From Bacteroidia bacterium (GTDB lineage: Bacteria > Bacteroidota > Bacteroidia > Bacteroidales > Azobacteroidaceae), in assembly GCA_025996865.1 (NCBI GenBank), contig BNTV01000005.1, positions 1-64,000 on the forward strand: a stretch of DNA of 64,000 bases, in the 5' to 3' direction. Shown here in pieces: positions 26,534 to 32,542 of this stretch (positions are counted from its first letter, which is position 1; each line of letters opens with the position of its first letter). Position numbers and translations under genes: made by a program. The notes beneath the pieces are model-generated. The model was not told the origin of the DNA, ran no database searches, and saw only the letters and a program-made list of their open reading frames with translations.

Positions 26534-26572
26534 TTGAATTAATAATTAATTGAATCTATTATTATTTCTATT

Positions 26573-26617
26573 CCAAGGTTTTCCGGCAGGATAAAAAATC
26601 CCGCCGGAAAACCTTGG
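26573..26617. terminator. Long hairpin after the SusC/SusD unit
   Basis: A 15-bp perfect stem (26573-26587 with 26603-26617) is extended inward by GGAT/ATCC after one mismatch, closing on a five-A loop. It follows the SusD stop by 40 bases. There is no T-run on the plus strand, so it may act as an mRNA-stabilising or attenuating hairpin rather than a simple terminator. Confidence 0.65.
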
Positions 26618-26727
26618 AGTGGAAGTTATTGTCTAACAATTTAAATTAAATTCTATGAAACATTTTTTGACTTGGGTGCACAACAAACTATTTTCTTAGC
26701 AAATTAAACTATTATTTATATAGTTTA

Positions 26728-28043: not shown

Positions 28044-28586
28044 TTAGTTATTATTCAATTTGCTTTCTGCTTTCATTTGCTCAATGAACTTATTCCACTC
28101 ATTTGCTATCTCCCTCATATTTTCATCTCTCTTTTTTTGCGCTTCCTGAGGCTTAGGCAGTACAGATACATTCACAGGATAGCCATCTGCAAGATAAAAT
28201 TTGTTTTCCATGATACTGTAATAAAAAACAAGACTATTGTAAATACTTGAGCTTAAATCTGAAACAAAAATCATCGACGAAAAGAGATATTCATCACTGA
28301 CATAAAATTTGACAGTACGCCAAATACGTATATCATTACTAATCAACATATTATCCCTAAATCGAATTTCCCTTGTAGTTTCATTAAACCACAGTATATC
28401 GTTTCCGGTAAAGATAACAACTTCCGAATTATTCGAATCGCTTGAACTTCTTGTCGCAATTTCTCCATTTGAGGCTCTTGCTACTAATTTTGACGTTTGA
28501 TTTGTTATTTCCTCGTCCGCATCCGGAGTGCATCCTCCTGACAATATGAATATTGCCACTGTAAACATTAAAACCAAGTTTCTCAT
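28044..28586 (-). CDS. Lipoprotein of unknown function in the ECF sigma unit
   Basis: A 180-residue lipoprotein with lipobox LSGGC at about residues 15-19. The mature part contains a beta-rich core (VVIFTGNDILWFNETTREIRF, then RTVKFYVSDEYLFSSMIF) and the segment KFYLADGYP, followed by a charged C-terminal helix. I recall similar Bacteroidales proteins of unknown function. The frame is open to an ATG at 28616, but that codon lies inside the bipartite motif at 28608-28647, which resembles a promoter shared with the sigma gene. The ATG at 28586 is therefore the better start. It lies between the receptor gene and the secreted propeller gene. Confidence 0.65.
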   Translation of the reverse strand: MRNLVLMFTVAIFILSGGCTPDADEEITNQTSKLVARASNGEIATRSSSDSNNSEVVIFTGNDILWFNETTREIRFRDNMLISNDIRIWRTVKFYVSDEYLFSSMIFVSDLSSSIYNSLVFYYSIMENKFYLADGYPVNVSVLPKPQEAQKKRDENMREIANEWNKFIEQMKAESKLNNN

Positions 28587-28607: not shown

Positions 28608-28647
28608 AAACCGCATAAATTCTATGATACCCTACCATAAATTGGAA
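28608..28647 (-). promoter_or_regulatory. Putative ECF-sigma promoter before the lipoprotein gene
   Basis: On the minus strand a block ATTTATGGTAGGGTA, eight unconserved bases, and TTTATGCGG occur in the same order and spacing as at 32503-32542 in front of the sigma gene itself. Of 27 positions in the two conserved blocks, 26 are identical. The position, about 20-60 bases before the lipoprotein start, suits a promoter. It lies in the gap after the receptor gene, so it would give extra expression of the last two genes. Confidence 0.6.
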
Positions 28648-28669
28648 AAAATAATTTACTTTATTCCCA

Positions 28670-31225
28670 TTATCTGTTTCTCACGTTCTTCGTTGATTTT
28701 TGCATTTTTCTCAACAGGCTTGCGCTACCATGCTCTAAATGAAAATTAACGTTTAGAAGCAACATTTGTTTTTGAGAGGCCATATCTATGATTGTTTTTT
28801 CGTGAAACAGAGGTGTTTCCATCGCTTTTGTTCGCTCATGCCTGATTCCTAAAGAAACAGGTGGAATATAGGACAACATGACAGAAATCCGATTGTGCCA
28901 CAATTCTTTTTGTACCGTAACACTCCAATAATCTCTGTTTTGCATCTGATAACCTTGCCACAGGATATTTTTCCTCATATTACGGTAATATCCCACTTGT
29001 ACACCAAAATACGCCGGTTGATTATAGTAATTTATTTCTGATTGGAGTATCCATCCATTTAACGAGTTAAAGACCTCATTATGATGTGCCTCGTCATAAT
29101 AAAATAAAACTGCGTTTTTCAACCGAAAACGGTCATTCAGTGCTTGGTCATAAGTCGCCTGTACGCTATATTCACGAAATTGAATATTTCCGAATATACG
29201 GAACAGTTTAAACTCCCTTCTCTCATATACTTCGCTAATACCATCGTTCACGAAAACAAATTGAGGTATTATTTTTATTTTGTTCCGGAGAGTAAATTCC
29301 GCAAAAACCTGATGTCTAAGCGCTGATTTTAGAGCGGGATTCCCAACTTGCGTCAGGAAGGTATCAATTACCAAACTCATTGGACTGAGTTGGTAGATAG
29401 AGGGATAGGACTGATTTGTAGAGTAATTTACCTGAACATTTATTTTTTTGTTAAAATTATAACACACTTGTAAATAGGGTAACATCCGCAAATAGTTATT
29501 GTGGCTATATTTACCTCGTGTTTTGATATGCTCGATAGCAAGACCCGATTTCATCCAAATCCTGTCGGAGGGAAAGAATGACAGGTAAAGAAATGCTTTA
29601 TTTCGGAATTCCGTATAATCCAAGAATCCACGCCCCAGACTACTTTCCGAACCGTACATTCGCCAGACATTGGAATATCCTGACTCAAGCGACAAGAAGG
29701 AAGAAATCGCGTATTGGTTTTCGATGTTAAATACAGTATGGTTCTTATATTCATTGTACAGGTTTTCGCTTTTATAATTCTTGAAATCATTTTGATTGTA
29801 ATTATTTACGATGTCGTTATAATAATAATTGTAGGAAAAATTGCCATACAGATGCATGCGATTATTCAGCTGCCCTTTATATGACAATGCGCTTGTAATC
29901 ATATTGTATTTCGTTCCGATTTCTGTAGTATTTTCAAAGATTCGGCTATTGTTTTGTGTTTTGTCTGCTGATTTCATGGTATATTTTTGATGCGTATTGG
30001 CATTACCGTATGAATAATCAATATGAGCGCCTATAAATTGCCGGGGCGTTACCTGATAATTGATTCCTCCGGTTAGAATATTGCTTTCATAGGCCGACAA
30101 ATCATTCGGGTTCTTCTCCGGAAAGGACACAAATTCGGATGAATTATAAGTTAATTCTTTCGTTGAGTACATCTTCCATTTTTCATGGCTGTAAGAATAC
30201 GTTCCGAAAAAGTTGAATTTATTGGTAGTATAAATAATCCCCAAGTCGGGGCTGTTTTCTGTCAAATAATTGTTAGTCTCACTTAAATTCAAAGAAGTTC
30301 TGTTTGAGAAGTTAATATCAAATCCTGTGTAATCTTTCTTGAGGCTAAGTTGAATGATTGCATCGTAATCGTCTGATACAAAACGTCCGGACAAGGCGCG
30401 AACAACTTCGACCGCATGAATACGGTTTGGGGAAAGATGCTTTAGAAAATGCTGTGAATATTGAACGCCATCTATAAGTAAAAGTATGTTATTTTGCTGA
30501 TTTACAATTATTTTATCTGATAATTTATCATAATGCAATTCAGGTATTTTTCCTAACAGTTCCAACGCATTGGCGGAACCATTACACATTTGAGGCGTCA
30601 CATCGTACTTCACAGAGTTCGGTTTAGTCTGAGTATTTGCCGTTACAATTATTTCCGAAAGTAGAATTTCTGTAATAGACAGGGAAAATTCGCCCCATTC
30701 TTCGTTCAAATTGGGAATTTCATCAATCAGCGTTTTATATCCAAAGCAACTGATTTTTATCAAATGAGGAATTGTTTTCGTTTCAATACGGAACCGTCCT
30801 TTGTTATTGGTTATTCCGGTTGTAATAGTTACCATATCGGTACTTAATAAAGATATGGTAGCATATTCAAGCGTTTGGCGACTCAGGCTGTCTATAACCG
30901 CTCCATTGAATACAAATCGCTCATTTATTGTCGTTTGTTGGCTGCTGTTATTTACAGGAACAATCACAAATACATTTCCGATTTTTTCTATCGCAAAAGG
31001 TTTATCGCGAAGCAGCCAATACAAAGCATTTTCGGAATTTTTAAATGATTTTGAAACTGTTACGCTGTAAGTTGACAAAGCCTTGTCATCAAAAGAGATT
31101 TCCAAATCAAGTGTACTCAACACCCTGTTCAATGGTTTTCTGTTAACATCCAACCGAACATTTTGCGAAAAACCTGCCGCAACAGCAATAAACAGCAATA
31201 AAAAAGTTATCCGGATGCCTTTCAC
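28670..31225 (-). CDS. STN-domain TonB-dependent outer membrane signalling receptor
   Basis: An 851-residue outer membrane protein with a signal peptide ending GFSQ. Residues about 22-95 form an STN (secretin/TonB short N-terminal) domain (LDVNRKPLNRVLSTLDLEIS to FVIVPV), which contacts a FecR-type anti-sigma factor. A carboxypeptidase-regulatory-like domain (about 105-190) is followed by a plug region (SEIIVTANTQT, then LLLIDGVQYSQHFLK) and a barrel. It overlaps the FecR gene by ATGA. With the sigma factor further upstream this is the full set for cell-surface signalling: ligand binding outside would free the sigma factor inside. The ligand is unknown, and transport is not proven. Confidence 0.85.
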   Translation of the reverse strand: MKGIRITFLLLFIAVAAGFSQNVRLDVNRKPLNRVLSTLDLEISFDDKALSTYSVTVSKSFKNSENALYWLLRDKPFAIEKIGNVFVIVPVNNSSQQTTINERFVFNGAVIDSLSRQTLEYATISLLSTDMVTITTGITNNKGRFRIETKTIPHLIKISCFGYKTLIDEIPNLNEEWGEFSLSITEILLSEIIVTANTQTKPNSVKYDVTPQMCNGSANALELLGKIPELHYDKLSDKIIVNQQNNILLLIDGVQYSQHFLKHLSPNRIHAVEVVRALSGRFVSDDYDAIIQLSLKKDYTGFDINFSNRTSLNLSETNNYLTENSPDLGIIYTTNKFNFFGTYSYSHEKWKMYSTKELTYNSSEFVSFPEKNPNDLSAYESNILTGGINYQVTPRQFIGAHIDYSYGNANTHQKYTMKSADKTQNNSRIFENTTEIGTKYNMITSALSYKGQLNNRMHLYGNFSYNYYYNDIVNNYNQNDFKNYKSENLYNEYKNHTVFNIENQYAISSFLSLESGYSNVWRMYGSESSLGRGFLDYTEFRNKAFLYLSFFPSDRIWMKSGLAIEHIKTRGKYSHNNYLRMLPYLQVCYNFNKKINVQVNYSTNQSYPSIYQLSPMSLVIDTFLTQVGNPALKSALRHQVFAEFTLRNKIKIIPQFVFVNDGISEVYERREFKLFRIFGNIQFREYSVQATYDQALNDRFRLKNAVLFYYDEAHHNEVFNSLNGWILQSEINYYNQPAYFGVQVGYYRNMRKNILWQGYQMQNRDYWSVTVQKELWHNRISVMLSYIPPVSLGIRHERTKAMETPLFHEKTIIDMASQKQMLLLNVNFHLEHGSASLLRKMQKSTKNVRNR

Positions 31226-31989
31226 CTTTCTATCTTAAATGTTATTCCGAATGGTTTGCCAATGATTTCAAGTGCGTCTTCCGGGTGTTCCGTTTTTAAA
31301 AAGTAACCCGTATAAAGTTGATTCATAGCTTTGTCTGCCGTAACGCGAATGTTGTATTGCCGCTCAATTTCAGCAACAACTTCGGGAAGAGGAATTTCCG
31401 TAAAAACAAATTTTTCACTCATCCAACCCATAGCGCATATCATATTTTTCTCTATTTGTGGCTTTTGTGAACGTAATGTTACTTGCATGCCTTGTTCCAA
31501 AGAAAATGTTTCATTATTGATATGAACTCCCACTCGTCCTGTCAGGCAGGTTACGCGGTACATTTCAGGGCGGGTAAAAACATTAAAAGTCGTGCCATGT
31601 ACATATACTTGATTTTGTCCTGATATGACACTGAACCTGCAACCTTGCTTTACCTCAAAAAAGGCTTCTCCTTCCAGTTTAACACTACGGAAAGCGAACC
31701 ACAGATATGGTCTGTATGTTATTTTACTCCCCGCATTTAGAATAACTCGTGAGCTATCCGGAAGATATATGGTTAGATGCTGTCCGAAAGCTGTTTTATT
31801 TTCAATTTTGTACAAACTGCCAAACAAAAGAACTGCAATAATAAGGATAGCTGCATATTTCAGGTATGAAACCCATTTTTTTGCGGGCTTTATGCTGTCA
31901 TCACCCGCTATGCATTCAAACATTTCATCCCAAATTTCTTTTTTGTTTTTACTCCATTGAGGAGTGATTTTAATTTTTCTTATATCCAT
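31222..31989 (-). CDS. FecR-family anti-sigma factor
   Basis: A 255-residue inner-membrane anti-sigma factor. A short cytoplasmic N terminus is followed by one membrane segment (YLKYAAILIIAVLLFGSLY, about 42-60). The periplasmic part starts with the FecR domain (TIYLPDSSRVILNAGSKITY, then LEGEAFFEVK, then VHGTTFNVFTRPE) and ends in the DUF4974-type part (FTEIPLPEVVAEIERQYNI). It overlaps the sigma gene by ten bases and the receptor gene by ATGA. Its role is to hold the ECF sigma factor until the STN receptor signals. Confidence 0.92.
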   Translation of the reverse strand: MDIRKIKITPQWSKNKKEIWDEMFECIAGDDSIKPAKKWVSYLKYAAILIIAVLLFGSLYKIENKTAFGQHLTIYLPDSSRVILNAGSKITYRPYLWFAFRSVKLEGEAFFEVKQGCRFSVISGQNQVYVHGTTFNVFTRPEMYRVTCLTGRVGVHINNETFSLEQGMQVTLRSQKPQIEKNMICAMGWMSEKFVFTEIPLPEVVAEIERQYNIRVTADKAMNQLYTGYFLKTEHPEDALEIIGKPFGITFKIER

Positions 31990-32477
31990 TGTAAAAGATT
32001 TTTTTTAATAAATTTTAACGCAGAAGTCATCCGCTTTTCAACCGCTTTGACACTGATGTGAAGACATTCGGCAATATCCCTGTATTTCATCCCGTCTTCA
32101 CGGCTCATTAGAAATACAACTCGTTGATTTTCAGGAATTTTTGAAAGAACCAATGCATAATCGGCTACCATCTGCTTAAATTGCATTTCATCTTCAGGCG
32201 AAACCTCGCAATCATTTTGTAACGTCATAGCCTGCTCAAAATTCATCCTGCACAAATTATGTCTGTAATTGCTTGTACAAAAGTCTTTTGCCATTTTATA
32301 AAGTAGAACATTTATTTTACTTGTGTTTAAATCTTGACGTTTTTCCCATACTCGCAAAAAAACATCCTGCGCAATATCAGATGCTGTTTCCATATCTCCA
32401 CACCTATAAAACGCAAAACTGCGAATAGCATCAAAATACCGGTTGAATAGTATTTCAAACTCTGTTTTATTCAACAT
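31980..32477 (-). CDS. ECF sigma-70 factor, FecI-like
   Basis: A 165-residue extracytoplasmic-function sigma factor. Region 2 (FEILFNRYFDAIRSFAFYRC, then ASDIAQDVFLRVWEKR) binds core polymerase and the -10 element. Region 4 (LSKIPENQRVVFLMSREDGM, then YRDIAECLHISVKAVEKRM) reads the -35 element. It is the first gene of an overlapping sigma/FecR/STN-receptor unit. The bipartite motif just upstream at 32503-32542 recurs before the lipoprotein gene, which suggests autoregulation and a small regulon inside the locus. Confidence 0.95.
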   Translation of the reverse strand: MLNKTEFEILFNRYFDAIRSFAFYRCGDMETASDIAQDVFLRVWEKRQDLNTSKINVLLYKMAKDFCTSNYRHNLCRMNFEQAMTLQNDCEVSPEDEMQFKQMVADYALVLSKIPENQRVVFLMSREDGMKYRDIAECLHISVKAVEKRMTSALKFIKKNLLQWI

Positions 32478-32502
32478 GTCTTAACCTTTGTAATATATAA
32501 TA

Positions 32503-32542
32503 AAACCGCATAAAACCCGCTTTACCCTACCATAAATCGGAA
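32503..32542 (-). promoter_or_regulatory. Putative autoregulated ECF-sigma promoter
   Basis: This is the copy of the bipartite motif in front of the sigma gene: on the minus strand ATTTATGGTAGGGTA, eight bases, then TTTATGCGG, 26 bases before the start codon. It matches 28608-28647 in both blocks and spacing. It does not fit the TTTG/TAnnTTTG housekeeping consensus, which points to an alternative sigma factor. Confidence 0.6.

Follow-up and report, generated by a model that had tools for sequence, protein, structure and literature searches.

The window analysed here, positions 1 to 64,000 of contig BNTV01000005.1 (GenBank assembly GCA_025996865.1, a member of the Azobacteroidaceae in the order Bacteroidales), carries on its minus strand a locus for an extracytoplasmic function (ECF) sigma factor, together with two copies of a bipartite motif, one before the sigma gene and one before a lipoprotein gene further downstream (Table 1). 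The sigma factor has the features expected of an ECF protein, as it consists of regions 2 and 4 only and its gene adjoins that of a predicted anti-sigma protein with FecR and FecR_C domains; its nearest NCBIfam model, TIGR02985, scored 125.6 bits against a cut-off of 126.4. Pfam called neither a Plug nor an STN domain in the barrel protein, the N-terminus of which, judged by eye, resembles what we take to be an N-terminal signalling domain. The lipoprotein matched nothing in Pfam or NCBIfam; the list of open reading frames (ORFs) starts its gene at 28616, inside the motif, and the ATG at 28586 is the likely start. Judged from the 35-nt gap, the propeller gene possibly belongs to the lipoprotein's transcription unit, and the strong inverted repeat beyond it is a possible end of that unit, although a consensus scan did not list it as a terminator.

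Table 1. Predicted features of the sigma factor locus and their positions in the window.
Feature	Position	Strand	Remarks
ECF sigma factor, 165 aa	31980..32477	-	Sigma-70 regions 2 and 4 (Pfam Sigma70_r2, Sigma70_r4_2)
FecR-type anti-sigma protein, 255 aa	31222..31989	-	FecR and FecR_C domains
Outer-membrane beta-barrel protein, 851 aa	28670..31225	-	OMP_b-brl_3; weak carboxypeptidase-regulatory-like match
Lipoprotein of unknown family, 180 aa	28044..28586	-	Putative target of second copy
Secreted propeller protein, 426 aa	26728..28008	-	Type IX secretion sorting domain
Inverted repeat	26561..26629		Between ends of propeller and convergent SusD-like genes; 32-nt arms, 84% complementary
Putative promoter copy before sigma gene	32506..32530	-	GTAGGGTA 32523-32530, CGG 32506-32508; ATG at 32477, 28 nt on
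Putative promoter copy before lipoprotein gene	28611..28635	-	GTAGGGTA 28628-28635, CGG 28611-28613; ATG at 28586, 24 nt on

An earlier note on this DNA had described the two copies as near-identical blocks around unlike spacers. Exact matches to the pattern ATTTATGGTAGGGTA-N8-TTTATGCGG occurred twice in the window. They occupy 28611-28642 and 32506-32537 of the minus strand, the coding strand of the sigma locus, and 100 dinucleotide shuffles of the window gave none; the copies, their positions and their strand had been given correctly. The blocks are indeed nearly identical, but they are longer than the 27 positions (26 alike) described, comprising TTCCRATTTATGGTAGGGTA and TTTATGCGGTTT with identity at 31 of 32 positions, and the 8-nt spacers, said to differ completely, nearly do so, agreeing at one position of the eight. 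The sigma-side copy sits in a 97-nt gap between a MacB-type gene and the sigma gene, and the other in an 83-nt gap between the barrel and lipoprotein genes; the distance between the two elements is fixed at 16 nt, counted from GGG to CGG. The motif was also rightly said not to fit the Bacteroidota housekeeping promoter (TTTG at -33, TAnnTTTG at -7), as neither site has that arrangement and none of the 13 matches to TTTG-N17..24-TAnnTTTG within the window falls at either of them.

Two sites so alike might be no more than a functionless duplicated stretch of DNA; a repeat finder reported one 52-nt pair, of 75% identity, and the flank TTCCRATTTAT is common to these two copies only. We regard this explanation as extremely improbable, because the spacers are so unlike between flanks that agree almost throughout, and because other genomes carry the same core around unrelated spacers, as described below. 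In the window's own genome (G000; 5,423,893 bases in 421 contigs, 88% complete), the pattern GGTAGGGTA-N6..10-TTTATGCGG was found only at the two window sites, and the reversed pattern was found nowhere. The shorter core GTAGGGTA-N14-CGG is not specific by itself, because it has a third match in this genome (C128:12626-12650, the identical 25-mer being present in G004 and G034) and 59 matches across 33 of 97 related genomes. As to the extent of the motif, the part that is conserved is GTAGGGTA-N14-CGGT, whereas the ATTTAT portion of the original description was not seen in the relatives inspected.

Relatives of the sigma factor scoring at least 100 bits were present in 10 of the 97 related genomes, the window's included. 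The window's genus contributed 37 further genomes, many of them incomplete, and not one of these had such a relative. A profile built from ten sigma proteins was searched against 393 genomes of the order; at most nine candidates were scored per genome, so that paralogs may be missing, and the search returned 64 rows at 164 bits or more, the next score down being 134.7. Sixty-three of these rows, together with one from G039, define the 64 loci (586,696 bases) compared here, which were chosen by protein with the DNA disregarded; G370:C964 was omitted because it is truncated at a contig end. Clade A, to which the window belongs, holds 37 loci and its sister, group B, the remaining 27. Four distant sigma relatives from a scan of named genomes were not used. 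At 5.4 Mb, the window's genome is larger than the 37 compared from its genus (1.0-4.2 Mb); taken with the absence of the sigma relative from those 37, this makes a recent gain, or the presence of foreign contigs in the assembly, possible.

At the 64 loci, exact GTAGGGTA occurred 65 times on the strand of the sigma gene and four times on the opposite strand, the spacers being unrelated. It was accompanied by CGG, CGA, CGT or TGT in 42 of the 64, and in a leave-one-out matrix scan 46 loci scored above the 99th percentile of the controls, which were taken on the opposite strand and with wrong spacing. Within 150 nt before the sigma gene, the exact 8-mer was present in 22 of 63 loci (L205 has no upstream DNA) and a match of at least 7/8 in 28, compared with 0.25% and 4.1%, respectively, in resampled sequences. 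As a control we took 50 loci of other sigma matches, made up of 20 distant relatives and 30 of the 37 matches in the window's genome, the window's own among them, and besides the window's copy these gave a single 7/8 match, with TGT. This comparison bears on whether a different ECF sigma factor of the cell reads the sites as its promoters; there are candidates enough, as 36 of the 37 matches to the region-4 family (PF08281) in the genome are proteins other than the window's sigma factor. We nevertheless consider this very unlikely, since we did not see the motif at the remaining sigma loci covered in that genome (30 of 37) and, across genomes, it accompanies the window's sigma family.

The copies stand before the sigma gene, before the barrel gene, before the gene after the barrel, or before a gene for a lipoprotein of about 300 aa directly upstream of sigma. 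From GTAGGGTA to the next listed ORF the distance was 21-140 nt in 56 of 61 copies and 275-627 nt in the other five, among which is the window's second copy, because the ORF list starts its gene inside the motif. The 38 non-sigma ORFs behind copies fell into sequence groups of 10, 9, 5, 4, 3, 2 and 2, with three singletons; by eye, the groups are a lipoprotein family, FecR-like proteins, barrel proteins, Gln-rich secreted proteins, DUF2202 proteins (with Pfam run on one of the three), the window lipoprotein with a relative in G392, and His-rich lipoproteins, and a lipobox-like pattern was present in 14 of the 38. The G392 relative, 53% identical to the window lipoprotein, is preceded by the core motif with a different spacer. 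Three weaker homologs (35-36%), namely another from G392 and those of G397 and G312, had no motif before their genes, and G397 and G312 are absent from the order-wide sigma profile matches.

The second half of the motif differs between the two sigma groups. In clade A, the trinucleotide 14 nt on from the 39 exact copies was CGG in 35, CGA in one, CGT in one and something else in two, and in group B it was TGT in 25 of 26 copies and something else in one; no exact copy in either group bore the other's type. Copies matching at 7/8 and followed by CGG or TGT numbered nine CGG and two TGT in clade A, and ten TGT in group B. On the sigma tree, labels assigned by eye from the sigma-proximal sites of 28 loci (18 CGG, including one CGA and one CGT, and 10 TGT) separate on one branch, with support of 100/99, and loci without a label were assigned to A or B from this tree. 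Sixty-two exact copies have an allowed -10, 22 of them sigma-proximal, and the 40 unlabelled ones all fit the A/B division. Three genomes (G219, G372 and G304) hold one sigma factor of each type, and in these every locus keeps its own -10 type. Counted by genome, the 34 with A-type sigma factors only had 49 CGGT and 8 TGTA matches (22 and 16 with the reversed patterns), the 23 with B-type only had 6 and 44 (17 and 8), and the three with both had 3 and 8 (5 and 0). Of the distant matches inspected, several in A genomes lie before genes for lipoproteins or secreted proteins, and others have no evident gene after them.

Were the motif instead the operator of a distinct transcription factor acting at these genes, and the sequence read by the sigma factor a different one, it would likewise be conserved and tied to the locus. 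This seems improbable to us, because the motif consists of two asymmetric halves that have a fixed spacing and point in the direction of transcription, as the strand counts indicate, and because its second half tracks the sigma clade even in the three genomes with two sigma types; moreover, we noticed no regulator gene common to the loci, though no systematic search for one was made.

Beyond the order, a search of the phylum matched the sigma factor at 1e-44 in 32 of 395 genomes, the window's included. There were 34 further sigma matches outside the order, 29 of them with loci and five left out, and exclusion of L289, L290 and L300 leaves the 26 loci of clade C. These contain 40 exact copies of GTAGGGTA, on either strand and within about 1.5 kb, of which 37, covering 22 of the 26 loci, have TGT at the same offset; the fourth base makes this TGTT in 31 and TGTC in six, compared with TGTA in 25 of 25 copies in group B. 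Clade-C loci often have one copy before the FecR gene and one facing the other way, towards a divergent gene with an apparently lipoprotein-like start. In the larger tree, A is one clade (100/99), which takes in G775 as its only row from beyond the order; B does not form a single clade, and C has support of 87/82. G750 and G477 each have a 7/8 copy with TGT.

The sigma proteins themselves were compared over the regions expected to read the two elements. The region-4 recognition helix, at positions 142-150, is nearly identical in A, B and C, whereas positions 61, 65, 69 and 73, which we take to face the -10 element in ECF sigma factors, are mostly Lys, Asp, Ser and Lys/Arg in A and mostly Thr, Asn, Asn and His in B and C. 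This pattern agrees with a common -35 and a changed -10 but does not prove it. When A was compared with B, residue overlap averaged 0.50 in region 2.3-2.4, 0.46 in the linker and 0.90 in the helix. Solved structures matched the sigma factor only weakly (best E-value 9.5e-06), too weakly for contacts to be mapped. Read off crudely at 30 sigma loci of the window's genome, the region-4 helix yielded a string at 12, not all of them helices, and KAVEKR was found among these in the window's sigma factor only, which says little.

RNA polymerase that carries the locus's own ECF sigma factor very probably uses both window copies as promoters, as the earlier note had suggested. The grounds are their fixed spacing, their orientation, their position before genes, their recurrence around unrelated spacers at the loci of sigma relatives, and the way in which their second half tracks the sigma clade. 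GTAGGGTA would then be the -35 element, read by region 4 of the sigma factor, and CGGT, after a 14-nt gap, the -10 element, read by region 2, with TGTA or TGTY in its place in relatives. We infer that the FecR-type anti-sigma protein would release the sigma factor, presumably on a signal relayed by the outer-membrane barrel protein, and that the freed sigma factor would raise transcription of its own sigma-FecR-barrel operon, giving autoregulation. Through the second copy it would also raise transcription of the lipoprotein gene and perhaps that of the propeller gene.

In the wider group, we think it likely that ECF sigma factors spread across the phylum read the uncommon -35 element GTAGGGTA, and that the -10 element has shifted with lineage, being CGGT in the window's clade, TGTA in its sister and TGTT or TGTC in the third. 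With region 4 constant and a few residues of region 2 changed, this would therefore be a natural switch of -10 specificity within one sigma family. The comparison goes beyond the first observation, in that the promoter appears to hold far outside the window's order, with its -10 following the sigma lineage. Several observations weigh against the reading of the sites as promoters of this sigma factor. The matrix scan found no significant copy at 18 of the 64 loci; two of the 11 clade-A 7/8 copies carry TGT (one 9.1 kb from the window's sigma gene, the other at L164); the reversed-pattern control for CGGT was not low, with its 22 matches in the A-only genomes; 24 of the 26 clade-C loci come from one family; and for G775, a row inside clade A, 14 kb of sequence contain no site of either type. 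In addition, the switch of -10 type from one group to the other took place once on the tree, and it is for this reason that the agreement between residues and -10 is no proof, nor does the divergence of region 2.3-2.4 as a whole between A and B exceed that of the linker.

The arrangement of the locus resembles that of FecI-FecR-FecA signalling, in which an ECF sigma factor, a FecR anti-sigma protein and an outer-membrane barrel are likewise encoded together. The window's barrel protein departs from FecA, a receptor with a Plug and an N-terminal signalling domain, in that Pfam called neither. According to a review, FecI-like systems are exceptions to positive autoregulation (PMC8103513); in contrast, the window's sigma gene has the motif before it, a mark of probable autoregulation. 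The same review gives AAC at -35 and CGT at -10 as early hallmarks of ECF promoters that are no longer defining (PMC8103513). Measured against what is described there, the motif is alike in its two short elements, whose cores are about 16 nt apart and which precede the sigma gene and its targets, and differs in that the -35 element, GTAGGGTA, lacks AAC and the -10 element is CGG or TGT; the two window sites do not have the AAC/CGT pair, and CGT occurs in one of the 65 exact copies at the 64 loci.

Das/Dma of Bacteroides thetaiotaomicron is described as an ECF21 sigma factor with a dual membrane-spanning anti-sigma protein, the genes of the locus rising once the anti-sigma is removed (PMC13088901). 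There, too, the sigma factor adjoins an anti-sigma tied to an outer-membrane barrel (PMC13088901), but anti-sigma and barrel are one protein, whereas the window has two genes. Two-element promoters have been proposed for other Bacteroidota ECF sigma factors, namely motif 2 of B. thetaiotaomicron, called near-palindromic and with boxes at -30 and -10 (PMC7366714, PMC12596196), and SM6 of Flavobacterium psychrophilum, with a CGT box (PMC9723704); the available text of these papers does not contain GTAGGGTA, the comparison being one of descriptions. Literature searches gave no paper on the motif among the matches listed (for the letters GTAGGGTA, 10 of 454 papers); a large published ECF classification may list a motif for this group, and in two Bacteroidota papers the letters TAGGGTA occurred in primers only.

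In B. thetaiotaomicron alone, ECF sigma factors number 50 (PMC12596196), and as of 2020 a promoter motif was known for none of them (PMC7366714). The specificity of the motif would allow targets to be listed from sequence for an uncharacterised sigma family, as would the -10 code, if true. The split between CGG and TGT under an unchanged -35 would be a natural test of the region-2 residues that set the -10 choice, and it offers sigma-promoter pairs for laboratory circuits.

Some individual loci had further features. For the window lipoprotein, 40 homologs were found apart from the protein itself; no Pfam domain was present in any of them, and five are named from Tannerella sp. or Tannerellaceae metagenome genomes. 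L168 and L173 have no separate barrel gene; they encode a FecR-type protein with a long Gln/Lys-rich tail, which is similar to the secreted protein encoded after the second copy (44% over 229 aa; 38% over 214 aa; low-complexity filter off), and this second-copy target may compete with the anti-sigma tail. At L087 (1397-3144), the barrel gene is separated from the second copy by two ORFs, one of which, judged by eye, looks like a DNA adenine methylase; the copy still stands before a gene for a His-rich lipoprotein. Distant CGGT copies at G199:C2:32958 (L223) and G430:C159:1396 (L226) precede a gene of 83-84 aa and then one of 348 aa. Far from the sigma gene of its genome, L268 (G376:C1:469500-473500) has four tandem CGGT-type copies about 345 nt apart, at G376:C1:470584-471648, each followed, some 116 nt on, by a very small Cys-rich ORF (31-54 aa) that starts MLCCCFKS.

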